Assembly: GCA_016185205.1 (NCBI GenBank)
Contig: JACPOA010000020.1
Location: forward strand, 62,001-126,000
From: Hyphomicrobiales bacterium
GTDB lineage: Bacteria > Pseudomonadota > Alphaproteobacteria > Rhizobiales > Xanthobacteraceae
Direction: 5' to 3'
Length of the DNA: 64,000 nucleotides
The notes below the pieces were generated by a model. It did not search any database, was not told the DNA's origin, and saw only the letters and a program-made list of their open reading frames with translations. This document shows positions 32,893-46,471 of the stretch, piece after piece (the first letter of the stretch is position 1; each line of letters opens with the position of its first letter). The translations under genes were made by a program, and so were the position numbers.

Positions 32893-35124
32893 ATGAGGAA
32901 CGTCCGCCTGCGCACGCTCGTCGCCACCATCGGCCTGATGGTGACGCTGACGATTTTCGTATCGATTCCCTGCGGATACTTTTATTTGCAGTTTGCGGAC
33001 AGGTCGCACCATCTGGACCACCAGTCTGAGCAGGCTGCCGCGCGCGTCGCCAAATACGTCTATTTGCACCGGACCCTTTGGCAATATCAGGCGCCGCGGA
33101 TCGCCGAGCTGATCGAGCTCACCGAAACGGACGGTAAAAACTATGCCCTGACCGTCCGCGACGAGACCGGCGCCGCCGTTGCCAGTGCGGGTCCGGCATT
33201 GCTCGCGCCCGTCATAGTTCGCAGCCATCCGATCGTCATTTCCGGCGCCGTTATCGGTCGGGCCGAGGCCATGAGCAGCCTGCGTCCCCTGTTGTGGCAA
33301 ACAGGCTTCGCCGCGCTGCTCAGCGCGGTGTTCGGCATCGGCATCTATTTTGCCGTGCGCGTCTTCCCACTCACGGTGCTCGATCGCACCTTGGGGGCGC
33401 TGGAAACCGCCAACGCGACGATCCGGGACAGAAGCAAGCAATTGCAGGTGCAGAACGAACGCTTCGACGCCGCCCTGACCCACATGTCGCAGGGCCTCGT
33501 GATGTTCGATTCATCGGCCCGCCTGGTCGTCTGCAATAAACGTTACCTCGAAATGTTCGGTTTATCGCCGGAGATCGTCAGGCCCGGCTGCACCATTCGG
33601 GAAGTCCTCGGTCAACGGGTCGCAAGCGGGAGCTTTAGCGCCGACGACTTCGAGCCGTATATAGCCGACCTCCTGGCCGCAGTCGCTCAAGGAACGACCT
33701 TCAGCAAGATCACGAACTTGCAAGATGGCCGGATCGTTTCCATCGTAAACCAACCGACCGCGGACGGCGGCTGGGTCGCCACCCACGAGGACATCACCGA
33801 ACGAATCCTCGCCGAGGAGAAAATCAGGCACTTGGCGCACTACGATGCGCTCACCAACCTGCCGAACCGCGTGACGTTCTATGAGCGTATGGAAACGGTT
33901 CTCGGCCATTTGCGGCGCTCCGAAACCATCGCGGTTCTGAGTCTCGATCTCGACCAATTCAAGAACGTCAACGATACGCTCGGACATCCCGTCGGGGACC
34001 GTTTGTTGCAGGCGGTCGCCGAGCGCATACGGAGTTGCGTGCGTGGCGAAGACATTGTGGCCCGATTGGGCGGGGACGAGTTTGCCATCATGCAGGTTCC
34101 ATCGGAACGGCCGGCGGATATCACTGCGCTTGCGACGCGTCTCATCGAGGTCGTCGGGGCTCCTTACGATATCAACGGTCATCAAGTGGTCGTGGGGACC
34201 AGTGTCGGTATCGCAATCGCGCCGGACGACGGTAGCGAGCCGGATGCCCTCATGAAGAACGCCGATTTGGCGCTCTACCGCTCCAAAGCCGATGGCGGGG
34301 GTGTCTACCGCTTTTTCGAAGTCGCAATGGACGCCCGCATGCAAGCGCGCCGCGCGCTCGAGCTCGATCTTCGCAAGGCGATCGTGAACGGCGAATTCGA
34401 GCTTTACTATCAACCTATCGTCAATGTCAAAAGCGGACACGCCACCGGCTGCGAGGCGCTGGTGCGCTGGCATCATCCCGAGCGCGGGATGATTGCGCCG
34501 CTCGAGTTCATTCCGGTCGCGGAACAAACCGGCCTCATCGTGCCATTGGGCGAATGGATATTGCGGCAGGCCTGCGCCGAAGCGGCGCGCTGGCCGCAGC
34601 AGGTGACCATCGCGGTGAACCTCTCGCCGGCCCAGTTCAAGAGCCGCAACTTGGTGCCGACCGTCATCAACGCGCTTGCGACGTCGGGCCTTTCGGCCAG
34701 CCGGCTGGAGCTGGAGATCACTGAGCTGGTTCTCTTGCAGGAAAATGAGGGCGCTTTCGTCGTTCTTCATCAACTCCGCGATCTCGGGATCAAGATCGCG
34801 ATGGATGATTTTGGCACCGGCTATTCGTCGCTCGGCTATCTTCGCAGTTTCCCATTCGACAAGATCAAGATCGACCAATCCTTCATCCGTGATTTGCCTG
34901 GGAAGGAAGACAGCGTCGCGATCGTTCGCGCCGTGGTCGGATTGAGCAGCAGCCTGGGCATAACGACAATCGCCGAGGGCGTGGAGACAAAGGAGCAGCT
35001 CGCGAGCCTGACGGCGGAAGGCTGCAATGAAGTGCAGGGCTTTCTGTTCAGCCCGCCGCGGCCGGCCGCCGACGTCCAACGGACGCTCGGCGAGCTTGGC
35101 CCGCGCGTCGAGGCCGTCGCCTGA
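32893..35124 (+). CDS. Membrane PAS-GGDEF-EAL c-di-GMP enzyme
   Basis: A 743-residue inner-membrane protein. The order is membrane helix 1 (about 8-30), periplasmic domain (31-135), helix 2 (about 136-158), PAS_7-like domain (190-305), GGDEF (310-475) and EAL (485-735). The cyclase motif RLGGDEF (393-397) is intact, with an inhibitory-site RGED at 384-387. The phosphodiesterase motifs CEALVRW (521-523), LEITE and DDFGTGYSS are also intact. Both activities are therefore possible. The 100-residue periplasmic domain could contact the binding protein encoded 12 bp upstream, as MbaA does with NspS in Vibrio (analogy only). Confidence 0.92.
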   Translation: MRNVRLRTLVATIGLMVTLTIFVSIPCGYFYLQFADRSHHLDHQSEQAAARVAKYVYLHRTLWQYQAPRIAELIELTETDGKNYALTVRDETGAAVASAGPALLAPVIVRSHPIVISGAVIGRAEAMSSLRPLLWQTGFAALLSAVFGIGIYFAVRVFPLTVLDRTLGALETANATIRDRSKQLQVQNERFDAALTHMSQGLVMFDSSARLVVCNKRYLEMFGLSPEIVRPGCTIREVLGQRVASGSFSADDFEPYIADLLAAVAQGTTFSKITNLQDGRIVSIVNQPTADGGWVATHEDITERILAEEKIRHLAHYDALTNLPNRVTFYERMETVLGHLRRSETIAVLSLDLDQFKNVNDTLGHPVGDRLLQAVAERIRSCVRGEDIVARLGGDEFAIMQVPSERPADITALATRLIEVVGAPYDINGHQVVVGTSVGIAIAPDDGSEPDALMKNADLALYRSKADGGGVYRFFEVAMDARMQARRALELDLRKAIVNGEFELYYQPIVNVKSGHATGCEALVRWHHPERGMIAPLEFIPVAEQTGLIVPLGEWILRQACAEAARWPQQVTIAVNLSPAQFKSRNLVPTVINALATSGLSASRLELEITELVLLQENEGAFVVLHQLRDLGIKIAMDDFGTGYSSLGYLRSFPFDKIKIDQSFIRDLPGKEDSVAIVRAVVGLSSSLGITTIAEGVETKEQLASLTAEGCNEVQGFLFSPPRPAADVQRTLGELGPRVEAVA

Positions 35125-40932: not shown

Positions 40933-43275
40933 CTAAGCGACCAACTGCACCACGGTCGCCGGCATCTCCAGCCGGGCGCGGATGGCATCCCCGGACATCG
41001 GCCGGCCGAACAGATAACCCTGGCCTTCGTGGCAGCCTTGCGAACTCACCAGCTTCATCTGCTCTTCCGTTTCGATGCCTTCGGCGACCACGATTTTGTC
41101 AAGGCCGGCGCCGAGGCTGGCGACGGCGCCGATGATGGCGCGGGCGTCGTGCTCGTCGCCAAGATCGACAATGAACGACCGGTCGATCTTGATCTTATGG
41201 AAGGGAAACTTGCGCAGATAGTTGAGCGAGGAATAGCCGGTGCCGAAGTCGTCGAGCGACAGGCTGACGCCGAGATTCTTGAGCTGACGCATGGCAGCGA
41301 GCGTGCCCTCGCTCTCCTCGAGCAGCACACGCTCGGTGACCTCGAGTTCGAGCCGTTGCGCGGACAGTCCCGACTTCGCGAGCGCCGATACCACCTGCAA
41401 GGTGAGGCCGCGCTCCCTGAACTGGATCGGCGACAGGTTGACGGCAACCTTGACGCCGTGCGGCCAGGTCGCCGCCTCGACGCAGGCGCGGTTCAATGCC
41501 CATTCGCCGATGGCAACGATCAGGCCGGTCTCCTCGGCAACGGGGATGAACACGGACGGCGGCACATTTCCGCGCACCGGATGCGTCCAGCGCAGCAGCG
41601 CCTCGCAGGTCGTCACCCGGCCGGTCTTCAGGTCGACCAGCGGCTGGTAGTTCAGGTGGAACTGCTGCAAGGCAAGGGCTTCGCGCAAATCGAGTTCGAG
41701 GGAGCGGCGCTCCTGCGCGGCATCCTCCATCGCCATGGCGAAGAAACAGTGGCTGCCGCCGCCGCCGTTCTTGGCGGCGTAGAGCGCCATGTCGGCCTTC
41801 TTGAGAAGCTGGTCGGCGTCGACGCCGTCATGCGGCGCCATGGCGATGCCGATCGACGCGCCGATGTCGATGCGATGGCCATCGACCTCGAACGGCGCGT
41901 TGAGCGTGCTGGCCAGCCGCATGGCAAGCCGCTTGGCGTCCTGATGGCGCTGGGTGGCCGTTTGCAAAACGACGAATTCATCGCCGCCGAAGCGGGTGAT
42001 CATATCGATCGGGCGGATGACGGTGCTGAGCCGGGCCGCGACTTCCTTGAGCAGCTTGTCGCCGATCGGGTGACCGAGCGTGTCATTGATGGCCTTGAAC
42101 CGGTCGAGATCGATCAGGTGGATGGTGACGTGATTCTCGCCTTCATGCACGGACGCGAGCATGGTGTTGATCCGCTCGTGGAACTGCGTGCGGTTGGCGA
42201 GCCCCGTGAGCTCGTCGAACTGGGCGAGATGCGCGATGCGCTCCTGCGCGCGCTTGCGCTCGGTCACGTCCTCGAGAATGATGACGGAGCCGCCCCCGGA
42301 CTTCATTCGTCGCGACACGGCGATGGTGCGGTCGCCGTCCGGCGAAGTCTGGAACTGGTCGAACTTGTCCTGCCGCAGACCGCCGGCCAGCTCGTGGATG
42401 ACCTGCTTCACGCTCTTGGCTTTGAAGTTGCCGGCGCGGATGCTGTGCCGGATCAGTTGCGGCATCCGCATGCCGACACGGATCGGCGCATTCTGCAGAT
42501 GCAGCAGTTCGATGAACCGCTCGTTCCAGACCTGCAGGCGGTCCTGCTGGTCGAGCATGCACAGGCCGTGCGACATGTTGTTGAGTGCGACGTCGAAGCG
42601 GTTGGCCTGCTCCTCGAAGCGGGCGGCCAGCGCCGCCTCCTTGCGCGTCATGGTCAGCGCTTGGATGATGATGTCGCGAATCGAGAGCGTGATGTCGATC
42701 ATCCCGTAGATGAACATCAGCACCACGACGCCGAGCGCCTTGTGCACCCAGTCGGGATAGAGGAGCAGCGCGATGGCCATTGGCAGCGTGCAGAGCGTGA
42801 GCTGACCGACGGCGATGACCGGCCGCCCGGCGTTGCGGCCCGAAATCGCGGCTCCGTAACCTGCCGTGGTGGTGGTGACGGCCATTTGCAACGCCGCATC
42901 CGACGTATGGGTGATCGTCAGCCAGCACAACAGACCAAGGAGAGCCGCGAACGCCCAGGCGCCGTATTCGTAGACGCGCTCCCACAGCTTTGTCACCTCG
43001 ATCTGCTGGCTATTCTTGTACCTGCGGTAAAACAGCGCGGACGCGACCCGCAGCATGCCGACCGCCAGGATGGCGACCGAATTGGCCATCAGCCACCAAT
43101 CGCCGACGCGCAGCGCGACCGCCGCCCCGATGATCGAGCAGGCGATGGCGCCCACGATCAGCGAGACGATCGGCGCGAACAGCGACTCGACCAAGGCGGC
43201 GCGAATCTCCGTCGGGAGTTTTGCATCCGCTCTGCGGGTCTGGAGCAGTTTTGTAATCAGCATGTGGCTTCGCAC
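40933..43275 (-). CDS. Membrane PAS-GGDEF-EAL c-di-GMP enzyme, divergent from the RpfF-like gene
   Basis: A 780-residue inner-membrane protein (GTG 43275; ATG 43263 is equally possible). About five helices fill residues 32-205 with short loops. A PAS_7-like domain (225-340), GGDEF (345-505) and EAL (520-765) follow. FGGDEF (430-434) has an inhibitory-site RPID at 421-424. CEALLRW (558-560), LEVTE and DDFGTGYSS are intact. The helical N-terminus could sense a lipid-soluble signal. The gene starts 373 bp from, and divergent to, an RpfF-like fatty acid signal synthase, which recalls rpfR/rpfF pairing in Burkholderia, although RpfR is soluble. Confidence 0.92.
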   Translation of the reverse strand: MRSHMLITKLLQTRRADAKLPTEIRAALVESLFAPIVSLIVGAIACSIIGAAVALRVGDWWLMANSVAILAVGMLRVASALFYRRYKNSQQIEVTKLWERVYEYGAWAFAALLGLLCWLTITHTSDAALQMAVTTTTAGYGAAISGRNAGRPVIAVGQLTLCTLPMAIALLLYPDWVHKALGVVVLMFIYGMIDITLSIRDIIIQALTMTRKEAALAARFEEQANRFDVALNNMSHGLCMLDQQDRLQVWNERFIELLHLQNAPIRVGMRMPQLIRHSIRAGNFKAKSVKQVIHELAGGLRQDKFDQFQTSPDGDRTIAVSRRMKSGGGSVIILEDVTERKRAQERIAHLAQFDELTGLANRTQFHERINTMLASVHEGENHVTIHLIDLDRFKAINDTLGHPIGDKLLKEVAARLSTVIRPIDMITRFGGDEFVVLQTATQRHQDAKRLAMRLASTLNAPFEVDGHRIDIGASIGIAMAPHDGVDADQLLKKADMALYAAKNGGGGSHCFFAMAMEDAAQERRSLELDLREALALQQFHLNYQPLVDLKTGRVTTCEALLRWTHPVRGNVPPSVFIPVAEETGLIVAIGEWALNRACVEAATWPHGVKVAVNLSPIQFRERGLTLQVVSALAKSGLSAQRLELEVTERVLLEESEGTLAAMRQLKNLGVSLSLDDFGTGYSSLNYLRKFPFHKIKIDRSFIVDLGDEHDARAIIGAVASLGAGLDKIVVAEGIETEEQMKLVSSQGCHEGQGYLFGRPMSGDAIRARLEMPATVVQLVA

Positions 43276-43648
43276 GGCTTCCGTGAAGCCGACGATCGTA
43301 CGTAACGATGTTCAATATCGTGCAAACGGCCCTGCCAATCGGCGGTATTGATGAACAAGCGGCAAATGGCCGCTTCACGAATTCAATAAAATTGTTCCGA
43401 AGTGCGTGCCCAGTAGCAATGATTATCGAACAGAAGCAACGGTTATCGAAATAGTACTCGGGAGCGCCGCGAGAGAATTTCTTTTGTAGTTAATGTTCAT
43501 TTTGAGGCGAATTTTCCGCGCGTTTCGTTGTGCGCGCGTTCGCAGAACATACGAGTCTTGCGTTCCGCATATGGTTAACGAGTGATTGTTGATTGTCGCG
43601 GGCACAACTTTCTGTTAGGGTAAAAAAATCGTTAACTGGTGCGTTGAA
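43276..43648. other. AT-rich divergent intergenic region (GGDEF-EAL / rpfF-like)
   Basis: No gene is seen. GC content is clearly below that of the neighbours. The sequence holds GGTTAACGA (43573-43581) and TCGTTAAC (43629-43636), an inverted pair around GTTAAC, the second 13 bp before the rpfF-like ATG. These could bind a regulator of the divergent pair. The two TTAA cores are too far apart for a CtrA site. Confidence 0.45.
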
Positions 43649-44626
43649 ATGTCGATGTATGCGTATTCGAACGGCTGTTCACCCGGTCGGGCCATCGCTC
43701 ACGCGAAGTCCTTTGCTGCGATAGCGCCGGCGGTTCCCGTGATCGATCCGAAAGTGATCGATCTTAAGAAAAGCGCCGACGCGCTTCGGCTGTTTGAGTT
43801 GGAACAGCTCGAGGTCACCTGGGAAGAGCAGATCGGCGCGCTGTGGACGTTCATGCGGCCGCGCGGCCGCCCGAGTTATAACACCGATTTGCTGGAAGAC
43901 TTCCACGCCTGGCAACGCGGCATCGTGGCGGCATTTGAGTACCGCCCGGACGAATTGAAGTATCTGCTGCTGGGTTCGCGCACGGCCGGGGTGTTCAATC
44001 TCGGCGGCGACCTCGATCTGTTCGCGGCCAAAATTCGCCAGCGCGACCGCCAGACGCTGGTCGCCTATGGCGAATCCTGCGTGCGCATCCTGCACCGGAA
44101 CATGACGACGCTTGGGCTTCCGATGATCACGATCGGACTGGCGCAGGGCGACGCGCTCGGCGGCGGCTTCGAGTCGCTGCTGTCGTTCAATATCATCATC
44201 GCCGAACGCGGCACCAAGTTCGGCTTCCCCGAAACCATGTTCGGCCTGTTCCCCGGCATGGGCGCCTACAGCCTGGTGGCGCGGCGCACCGGCGCGGCCT
44301 TCGCCGAGGAGATGATGCTCAGCGGCAAGACCTACACCGCCGAGCAGATGAAGGACGCCGGCCTGATCCACATGGTCGTTGAGCCCGGGCAGGGCATCGA
44401 GGCCGCGCGCGATTACATCCAGCGTAACAAGCGGCGGCACGCCGGCGCGCGCGCGGTCTTCCAGGCCGGCCGCGAGGTCAATCCGGTCACGCTCGAGGAA
44501 CTCGACCGCATCGTGCAGATATGGGCCGATGCCTGCCTGCAATTGAGCGAGCGCGATCTCAAGGTCATGCAGCGGCTGGTGAGCGCGCAGGATCGGCTGA
44601 ACCCAAACTTGCAGGCCGCCGAGTAG
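43649..44626 (+). CDS. RpfF-like crotonase (putative DSF signal synthase)
   Basis: A 325-residue crotonase-fold enzyme, longer than RpfF (about 289) by an N-terminal extension. RpfF proteins make diffusible cis-2-unsaturated fatty acid signals from acyl-ACP by dehydration and thioester cleavage. Diagnostic features are GDALGGGFESLLSFNI, AERGTKFGFPETMFG and LFPGMGAYSLVARRTG. The two glutamates at 175 and 195 have the 20-residue spacing of the RpfF pair Glu141/Glu161. Ordinary enoyl-CoA hydratase is the alternative, but LFPGMGAYS strongly favours RpfF. Neighbours are a divergent GGDEF-EAL sensor and a convergent acyl-CoA ligase. Confidence 0.82.
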   Translation: MSMYAYSNGCSPGRAIAHAKSFAAIAPAVPVIDPKVIDLKKSADALRLFELEQLEVTWEEQIGALWTFMRPRGRPSYNTDLLEDFHAWQRGIVAAFEYRPDELKYLLLGSRTAGVFNLGGDLDLFAAKIRQRDRQTLVAYGESCVRILHRNMTTLGLPMITIGLAQGDALGGGFESLLSFNIIIAERGTKFGFPETMFGLFPGMGAYSLVARRTGAAFAEEMMLSGKTYTAEQMKDAGLIHMVVEPGQGIEAARDYIQRNKRRHAGARAVFQAGREVNPVTLEELDRIVQIWADACLQLSERDLKVMQRLVSAQDRLNPNLQAAE

Positions 44627-44786
44627 CAGGCGCGGGCGTACTCTTGATTGAAAAGGGTGCGCGCGCCGGGAACGGGTTAGACGCTACGCGTACCGATGCG
44701 TTGCTGTCGCAGTCAGAAACCGGCAAAATCAACTGCGTCCGTCTTCCCCATTGCGGCCGGTTGCCACCCGGCGCGTGCGTGAAGAA

Positions 44787-44812
44787 AACGCGATCGGTGC
44801 CGTTTCGGTTCC
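44787..44812 (-). promoter_or_regulatory. EcfG-like motif antisense to the rpfF-like gene
   Basis: On the minus strand GGAAC (44812-44808) is followed after 17 nt by CGTT (44790-44787). This matches the stress-sigma consensus and points into the 3' end of the rpfF-like gene. No minus-strand gene lies just downstream, so it would make antisense RNA. A chance match is quite possible. Confidence 0.25.
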
Positions 44813-44830
44813 AGGGTGACGGATCAGCCC

Positions 44831-46471
44831 TCACTCCGCCGCTTGCACGCCCGGCAGCCGGTAATCCTTGAACTGCTGGCGCAGCGTGATCTTCTGGATC
44901 TTGCCGGTGGCGGTGTGCGGAATTTCGTCGACGAACACCACGTCGTCCGGCATCCACCATTTGGCAATCTTGCCCTGCATGAAGCCGAGGATGTCGTCTT
45001 TGCTCGCCGTCTCGCCCTTTTTCAGCACGATGACGAGCAGTGGGCGCTCGTCCCATTTCGGATGCGCGACGCCGATGGCGGCGGCTTCCGCCACTTTCGG
45101 GTGGCCGACCGCAAGGTTCTCCAGGTCGATGGTGGAAATCCATTCGCCGCCCGACTTGATCACGTCCTTGGCGCGGTCGGTGATCTGCATGTAGCCGTAG
45201 CGGTCCATTGTGGCGACGTCGCCGGTGTCGAACCAGCCGCCGGCCTCGAACACCGGATCGTGGTCGACCTTGTAGTAGCTGCGCGCCACCGACGGCCCGC
45301 GCACCTTCAAGCGGCCGAAGGTCTTGCCGTCCCATGGCAGGTTTTTGCCGGCGTCGTCGGTGATCTTCATCTCGACGCCGAACGGCGGGTGGCCCTGCTT
45401 CATCTTCACGTCGAGCCGCGCCTCGCCTTCGAGCGTCGCATGTTCCGGCTTCATGGTGCAGAGCGAGCCGAGCGGGCTCATCTCGGTCATGCCCCAGGCG
45501 TGGATCACCTCGACGCCGTAGACCTCCTGGAAGGTCTTGGTCATGGCGCGCGGGCAGGCCGAGCCGCCGATCACCACGCGCTTCAAGTGCGGCAGCTTGC
45601 CGCCGGTCTTTTCCAGGTCCTGCAGCAGCATCAGCCAGATGGTCGGTACCGCGGCGGTGAAACTCACTTGGTATGTATTGAGCAACTCGTAGATCGAGGC
45701 GCCGTCCATCTTGCCGCCGGGCATCACCAGCGTGGCGCCGACCATCGGCGCGGTCAGCGCCAGCCCCCAGCAATTGGCGTGGAACATCGGCACCACCGGC
45801 AGGATCACGTCGCGCGACGAGCAGCCCATGGCGTCGGGCAGGGCGGCCATCATCGAATGCAGCACATTGGAGCGGTGCGAATAGAGCACGCCCTTGGGAT
45901 GGCCGGTGGTGCCGGAGGTGTAACACATGCCGGCGGCGGTGTTCTCGTCGAACTCGCCCCAAGCGAAATCGCCGTCGACCGCGCCGATCCACTCTTCGTA
46001 AGGCACGGCATTCTGCAGCGTGGTGGCCGGCATATGCGCGGCGTCGGTCAAGATGATGTAACGCTCGATGGTCGGCAGCTTGTCGGCGATCTTCTCCAGC
46101 AGCGGCACGAAAGTGAGATCGGCGATCATCACGCGGTCGGCGGCGTGATTGACGATCCAGACGATCTGCTCGGGGAACAGCCGCGGGTTGACGGTGTGGT
46201 AGATCGCGCCGATGCCGGTGATGCCGTACCAGGCCTCCATGTGGCGCCAGGTATTCCAGGCCAGCGTCGCCACCCGGTCGCCGAGCTTGATGCCGTCGCG
46301 GTCGAGCCGCTGCGCCACTTTCAGCGCGCGGGCGCGCAACGCGCGATAGTTGGTGGTGTGGATCGGACCCTCGACCGAACGGCTGATCACCTTGCGCTCG
46401 CCGTGGAACGTGGCGGCATGATCGATGATGCGATGCATCAGCAGCGGCCAATTTTGCATCAGCCCGAGCAT
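44831..46471 (-). CDS. Fatty-acyl-CoA ligase (ANL superfamily, DmdB/FadD-like)
   Basis: A 546-residue AMP-forming acyl-CoA synthetase. ATG 46471 is preferred over upstream codons because AGGAGG lies just before it. Core motifs are [20 protein letters not shown] (P-loop), [33 protein letters not shown] and the C-terminal [10 protein letters not shown] lysine. It resembles the medium/long-chain or methylthiopropionate ligases of Rhizobiales. It is convergent with the rpfF-like gene; RpfB, the ligase that consumes DSF in Xanthomonas, has the same chemistry, so a role in signal turnover is possible but unproven. Confidence 0.9.

Follow-up and report, generated by a model that had tools for sequence, protein, structure and literature searches.

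RpfF is the synthase of the diffusible signal factor (DSF). In Burkholderia and Cronobacter an RpfF-type crotonase lies near RpfR, a PAS-GGDEF-EAL protein, while in Xanthomonas RpfF is combined with RpfC, a hybrid kinase and membrane receptor. According to the available portion of one RpfR study, the PAS domain of RpfR binds fatty acid and its FI domain binds RpfF at the tunnel entrance, with Phe44 and Phe88 of RpfF shifting, in the FI complex, into the space that the bound acid takes up (PMC6361424). The available portion of a study of Stenotrophomonas maltophilia describes two variants, rpf-1 and rpf-2, in which synthase and sensor N-termini both differ and their combination is constant (PMC4517397). 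Here we analyze a candidate relative of these systems in a 64,000-nucleotide stretch from a Hyphomicrobiales bacterium (contig JACPOA010000020.1, positions 62,001 to 126,000; hereafter, the window). We took its genus to be Pseudolabrys, since a crotonase comparison gave Pseudolabrys and unclassified Hyphomicrobiales metagenome-assembled genomes (MAGs) as the nearest named records. An earlier note on this DNA had proposed that three neighboring genes, encoding an RpfF-like crotonase, a membrane PAS-GGDEF-EAL protein and an acyl-CoA ligase, form a DSF-type signal system.

Our comparisons suggest that two of these genes, those for the crotonase and the GGDEF-EAL protein (hereafter, the sensor), probably encode a sending synthase and a membrane receptor with two matched specificities. 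This reading is carried by four results obtained from sequence comparison: kinship of the crotonase with RpfF, retention of its catalytic residues, co-inheritance of the two genes, and coupled switching of one segment in each between two types, A and B.

40933..43275, minus strand: sensor gene, 780 aa; six-helix N-terminal (putative membrane) domain, PAS_7, GGDEF, EAL
42661..43263, minus strand: type-following part of the sensor, aa 5-205 (clustering, trees, association scan)
42241..42585, minus strand: PAS_7 domain, sensor aa 231-345 (Pfam)
41758..42225, minus strand: GGDEF domain, sensor aa 351-506 (Pfam)
40999..41691, minus strand: EAL domain, sensor aa 529-759 (Pfam)
43276..43648, no strand: divergent intergenic region; with its flanks, nearer to the backbone tree than to A/B type
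43649..44626, plus strand: RpfF-like crotonase gene, 325 aa; Pfam ECH_1
43886..44128, plus strand: type-following part of the crotonase, aa 80-160 (clustering, trees, association scan)
44171..44233, plus strand: predicted catalytic glutamates, Glu175 to Glu195 of the crotonase (alignment to RpfF Glu141 and Glu161)
ending at 44831, minus strand: acyl-CoA ligase gene, AMP-binding (Pfam); open reading frame (ORF) up to 46603, start used 46471, giving 546 aa

An RpfF relative and a putative membrane GGDEF-EAL protein

The three reading frames and domain calls of the earlier note were confirmed by an ORF check and Pfam, as was the divergent arrangement of the sensor gene; the 373 bp given for its distance from the crotonase is correct for a GTG sensor start. 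Alignment of relatives places the probable start at Met5 (43263), which is common to most of them. The LFPGMGAYS motif reported for the crotonase is present, and Glu175 and Glu195 align with Glu141 and Glu161, the numbering given for the catalytic residues of RpfF in the accessible part of PMC9864630. Residues E175, E195, G119, G120 and G171-G173 did not vary across 51 aligned sequences, the window's among them; the crotonase thus appears to hold the catalytic glutamates and oxyanion-hole glycines expected of the RpfF family. In a mapping read by hand from the pairwise alignment with RpfF, Phe44 corresponds to window Tyr77 and Phe88 to window Phe125, positions that lie just before and inside the type-following segment, respectively.

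The best relatives of the crotonase in the PDB were four RpfF-type sequences (172-194 bits), followed by another crotonase at 55 bits. Using an AlphaFold2 model with a mean predicted local distance difference test (pLDDT) score of 88.5, Foldseek returned RpfF, DfsA or Rpf-1 for all of the top twelve chains (five PDB entries; 35-40% identity), after which came ordinary hydratases at ~20% identity. A tree of 88 proteins, which took in 3 of the 8 hydratases fetched from the same genome, likewise placed the crotonase in an RpfF-like group apart from those 3 enoyl-CoA hydratases, so that the phylogenetic check proposed in the earlier note came out in favor of RpfF, with Foldseek in agreement. Counting against the assignment, the crotonase missed the NCBIfam cut-off for the RpfF equivalog (219.6 versus 550 bits); it passed that of PRK08788 (369 versus 177 bits), the better-fitting model. 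The crotonase is, by these comparisons, a relative rather than a proven member of the DSF synthases, and is split from ordinary hydratases.

The AlphaFold2 model of the sensor contains six long N-terminal helices (36-57, 60-89, 92-123, 127-147, 152-172 and 176-232); its mean pLDDT was 83, and a predicted template modeling score (pTM) of 0.47 makes the domain arrangement unreliable. Five of the six helices passed a hydropathy scan, the exception being helix 127-147, and we take the domain they form as membrane-spanning. No Pfam match was found for it (best E 1.5), and Foldseek with the whole sensor gave GGDEF-EAL structures among the 50 matches listed, which were uninformative on the membrane domain. 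An RpfC-type input domain was considered and rejected: the likeness was by eye only, and hhalign gave a probability of 0.8%. The output domains look intact, GGDEF residues 430-434 and EAL residues E558, N613, E645, D675, D676, K696, E732 and Q752 being invariant in 39 aligned sequences. Pfam detected no kinase domain in the window sensor.

An RpfR-type pocket was considered for the PAS domain. RpfR residues S169, N172, Y183, R187 and N202 are present in the RpfR-like proteins of loci L201 and L203, and the window PAS could not be usefully aligned with them (probability 3%). Pfam found no PAS in the three sensors scanned from the sphingomonad family defined below (L084, L251 and L254), and no match above 35 bits was found between the window PAS and Sphingomonas loci. 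On this evidence the membrane domain, and not PAS, is the shared element.

The pair thus resembles RpfF/RpfR in having an RpfF-type crotonase near a PAS-GGDEF-EAL protein, with both catalytic glutamates and intact GGDEF and EAL motifs. It differs in that RpfR carries FI and no membrane domain, whereas the window sensor carries six long hydrophobic N-terminal helices, and in that the window PAS is a PAS_7 domain, which is missing from the scanned sphingomonad-family sensors and to which the RpfR ligand residues could not be aligned. With RpfF/RpfC it shares an RpfF-type synthase and a putative membrane receptor; however, RpfC is a membrane histidine kinase with REC and Hpt, the window sensor is a GGDEF-EAL protein, and the input domains are unlike. 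Both described receptors do occur beside related crotonases. RpfC-like kinases were picked up in the fetched stretches of 24 loci with one pattern and of 16 with a second, the two sets overlapping, and a domain check of two such neighbors recovered HisKA, HATPase, REC and Hpt. RpfR-like proteins lie at most 1.5 kb away in five loci (L201-L205). The 88-protein tree grouped broadly by receptor with several partner changes, the receptor labels being partly pattern-based and that of L216 coming from a contig-truncated sensor. In four loci (L221, L230, L236 and L243) an RpfF-like crotonase, an RpfC-like kinase and a GGDEF-EAL gene stand in a row, as if the last replaced RpfG.

Linkage and co-inheritance of the pair

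The sensor adjoins the crotonase in 22/22 close orthologues fetched; the pair is divergent in 21 and convergent in L047, and elsewhere convergent or same-strand. In five of these loci (L044, L047, L048, L049 and L053), each read for 7 kb or more to either side, none of ten other window query proteins was found. The window genome assembly (4.38 Mb) has 14 EAL matches, giving a chance below 1% that a given gene has an EAL neighbor (two neighbors, an estimated ~4,000 genes). A second EAL-domain gene at 34366-35058 (+), ~6 kb from the pair, is the best EAL match of the genome. Among loci in named genomes we examined the best 80 of 402, of which L056-L077 come largely from the same genomes as L033-L054. 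A membrane-domain sensor was adjacent in 55 of these 80 and absent from the stretch in 24, where the stretches of L080 and L116 are short; in L078 the contig ends after EAL and GGDEF. Further loci from searches of the order and phylum had an adjacent membrane-domain sensor in 12/56. Asparagine synthase, pirin and AFG1 were considered as alternative partners in the 24 loci without a sensor and rejected, as the membrane-domain protein lay elsewhere in 10/10 genomes tested.

Besides the window genome, 35 genomes of the same genus divided into 21 with both genes and 14 with neither, six of the latter being at least 94% complete. Another 24 genomes of the order included one with both genes (G048) and four with weak membrane-domain matches only (G040, G052, G054 and G058). 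We also searched 199 genomes, at least 90% complete, of the family of genome G407, which we call the sphingomonad family because the G407 crotonase is placed by the tree beside those of Altererythrobacter and Erythrobacter. A crotonase at E <= 1e-40 occurred in 74. The sensor (E <= 1e-30) was found in 67/67 genomes with a crotonase at E < 1e-120, and the other 132 comprised 11 with the sensor and 121 without, seven weaker crotonases being among the 121 (Fisher p 8e-42, a value that ignores relatedness). No close crotonase without a sensor was seen among the 199. The 67 pairs lay within 5 kb in 16 genomes, on one contig but separated by 70 kb or more in 32, and on different contigs in 19, in each of which a contig break between neighbors is possible. 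Five far-apart or sensor-only examples that we opened all had GGDEF and EAL motifs. Two observations run counter to strict pairing: one genome of the order (G045) has a distant crotonase (39%) with no sensor match, and 11 sphingomonad-family genomes at E <= 1e-30, or 24 at E <= 1e-12, have a sensor but no close crotonase. The 11 genomes at the stricter threshold are possible "listeners only", and genera g138, g499, g528 and g537 each hold both sensor-only and two-gene genomes.

Taken together, the linkage and co-inheritance of the crotonase and the PAS-GGDEF-EAL protein are strong, and the two belong together. The association proposed in the earlier note is thereby upheld in sequence terms, more strongly than had been supposed, for two of its three genes, with signaling as their putative function. 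The ligase, named there as the weakest link, does not belong. It was found in 34/35 same-genus genomes, among them 13 of the 14 that lack the pair, and lay within the fetched stretch in only 11 of the 22 close orthologues (some stretches being short), at 1.3-9.4 kb from center to center. The ligase scored above cut-off with two models, those for a long-chain acyl-CoA ligase and for a 3-(methylthio)propionyl-CoA ligase. It is a core gene with loose linkage to the pair and no part in it. That it acts as RpfB in a three-gene system is therefore very improbable, despite its position 204 bp from the crotonase: the co-inheritance with an rpfF-like gene that an RpfB would display is missing, and the accessible text on RpfB, which reports it in many RpfF bacteria, also describes RpfR-bearing bacteria without it (PMC6361424).

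The same data bear on whether the pair belongs to ordinary lipid metabolism, with the crotonase as a hydratase or thioesterase, the sensor reporting the state of the membrane or its fatty acids, and the two kept as neighbors by shared regulation. The PRK08788 label reads merely 'crotonase/enoyl-CoA hydratase family', and RpfF variants of S. maltophilia seem, in the portion of that report available, to release general fatty acids too (PMC4517397). We regard this reading as improbable in view of the patchy presence of the pair (21/35 in one genus), the co-inheritance of the sensor even when far apart, the placement with RpfF by tree and Foldseek, and the coupled types described below.

Two matched types of crotonase segment and membrane domain

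The comparison of types covered the window, L033-L054, L059, L066, L069 and L077; among these, L047 belongs to a different family, and no genus name is attached to L059 or L066. In alignments the same seven loci stood apart both in part of the crotonase and in the sensor membrane domain. Within crotonase 85-159, 9 columns differ between types in a fixed or nearly fixed way, as do 17 within sensor 24-185, and two weak differences lie further along the sensor (378 and 775). Crotonase residues 85, 88, 108, 151 and 154, fixed by type in the first 23 loci, read F/W/L/N/T versus I/L or M/A/F/A. Four loci outside the original observation agreed, L069 being B in both segments and L059, L066 and L077 being A in both. 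Pseudolabrys sp. Root1462 (L063) is of type A, and the single-contig genomes G004 and G011 are of type B.

Blind two-way clustering of the 26 pairs with a whole sensor gave, by two methods, an identical 8/18 partition from crotonase 80-160 and from sensor 5-205, and did not recover it from the remainder of either protein. The two segment trees needed one type change each (SH-like approximate likelihood ratio test, SH-aLRT, 98 and 99), while the tree of the rest of the sensor needed six, five of them forced by well supported branches; a single type B clade in the remaining sensor sequence was rejected by an approximately unbiased (AU) test (p 2e-63). With outgroups included, type B remained one group in both segment trees, a pattern that implies recombinational exchange. 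In a sliding scan that used no type labels, crotonase 80-160 was associated with every sensor window within aa 1-200 (r 0.31-0.57, 0/1000 permutations) and not clearly with those within aa 201-780 (r -0.19 to 0.16); the scan gave no value for crotonase 321-340.

Several results weaken the coupling or blur its borders. The tree of the rest of the crotonase needed five type changes, only 2 of them forced by well supported branches, and L069 retains 7 of the 9 diagnostic sensor residues. The independent-pairs result merely counts 5 separate switches and, its labels being identical, is no evidence of concordance. In the scan, crotonase 41-80 (r 0.31-0.39, 0/1000) and 281-300 (0.22, 2/1000) were also associated, and sensor 201-240 marginally so (0.14, 46/1000).

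Three side observations concern these loci and their relatives. L044, L045, L048 and L049 stand together in both segment trees and in the rest of both genes, and may represent a third type or mere kinship. Pairs from Sphingobium and Rhizorhapis (L124, L128 and L131) have long branches in both crotonase 80-160 and the membrane domain. The sensor gene of L036 (10325-12602), from a MAG, is in two reading frames, through error or decay.

Matched switching would be expected if one segment sets a signal and the other reads it, and the RpfF/RpfC variants of S. maltophilia are a precedent for matched pairs in a DSF system. Those too comprise two variants with matched synthase and sensor combinations. 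They differ in that the sensor there is RpfC, for which the accessible description gives ten or five transmembrane regions (PMC4517397), instead of a GGDEF-EAL protein, and in that the segments compared here have been swapped on several occasions between close relatives. The main rival to matched chemistry is contact between the proteins. The crotonase might dock on the sensor as RpfF does on the FI domain of RpfR, where it is bound at the tunnel entrance (PMC6361424), or on RpfC, which represses RpfF (PMC4517397; both in the parts available), and the types would then represent matched contact surfaces. We consider such a fit unlikely. All nine type-fixed sensor residues lie in the long N-terminal helices, an improbable face for a soluble enzyme, and eight are in helices that pass the hydropathy scan, residue 138 (helix 127-147) being the exception; the crotonase changes at 85, 88, 108, 151 and 154 would rather resemble repacking of the core.

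Recombination tracts and a proposed signal circuit

The two segments face each other across the intergenic region, and single recombination tracts could have carried both without any functional match, a possibility that is compatible with a sender-receiver pair. The closest A/B pair, window versus L033, speaks for separate tracts. The body of the sensor was 92-95% identical, its membrane domain 80-85% and the intergenic region 87%; along the crotonase, identity was 91% in codons 1-60, 82% in 61-79 and 72-75% in 80-160, then 95% and 87%, a profile with a dip on either side of a ridge. For the DNA running from codon 5 of the sensor to codon 80 of the crotonase, 6 type changes were required, 4 of them forced, and its tree, in keeping with the backbone, grouped the window with L033 and L036 with L043 (100/100 each), and L069 with L044, L045, L048 and L049 (99/99). 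Partial r between the segments was 0.68, versus 0.38 and 0.32 for the intervening DNA (25 loci). Hitch-hiking in single tracts is, on this evidence, unlikely as the source of the coupling. In its favor, and against separate tracts, the intervening DNA retains some association with type, as these last two values indicate; in the second close A/B pair, L036/L043, intergenic identity is 68%, not above that of the segments and with no ridge; and the intervening DNA of L051/L052/L054 does not group with its backbone sister. Two separate tracts are the plainest reading of the window/L033 switch, while the L036/L043, L069 and L051/L052/L054 cases are less clear. The readings weighed here overlap, and our confidence in them is not meant to add up to certainty.

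Returning to the sender-receiver reading, we suggest that the crotonase would dehydrate an acyl chain on acyl carrier protein (acyl-ACP) and release a 2-enoic fatty acid, the product presumed from RpfF kinship. The released acid would be sensed by the six-helix membrane domain, and the signal would run via the long last helix, plus PAS where one exists, to turnover of cyclic di-GMP (c-di-GMP), the direction of the effect being, like coupling by chemistry rather than contact, presumed. Crotonase 80-160 would set the structure of the signal and the membrane domain would read it, both switching together in Pseudolabrys and near kin.

A fuller proposal combining these elements is offered tentatively. 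Pseudolabrys and its near kin may have two interchangeable fatty-acid signal dialects, in which the product-shaping part of the synthase and the reading membrane domain recombine together as a match, in some cases at least by separate tracts, while the rest of both genes is kept. The pair would then be a widespread alphaproteobacterial branch of DSF signaling with its own class of membrane receptor, and sensor-only genomes would listen without speaking. Among the titles of the matches listed, in a search that left subscription papers mostly outside, none names the pair in Pseudolabrys, Sphingomonas, Novosphingobium, Erythrobacter or Methylobacterium. If the proposal is true, DSF-type signaling would reach many alphaproteobacteria by way of a class of receptor not described for it in any of the papers listed or read, and a fatty-acid signal would be linked to c-di-GMP from the membrane. 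The naturally matched and switched segments would let specificity be mapped to a few residues, and would offer a case for studying how signal dialects originate and persist.

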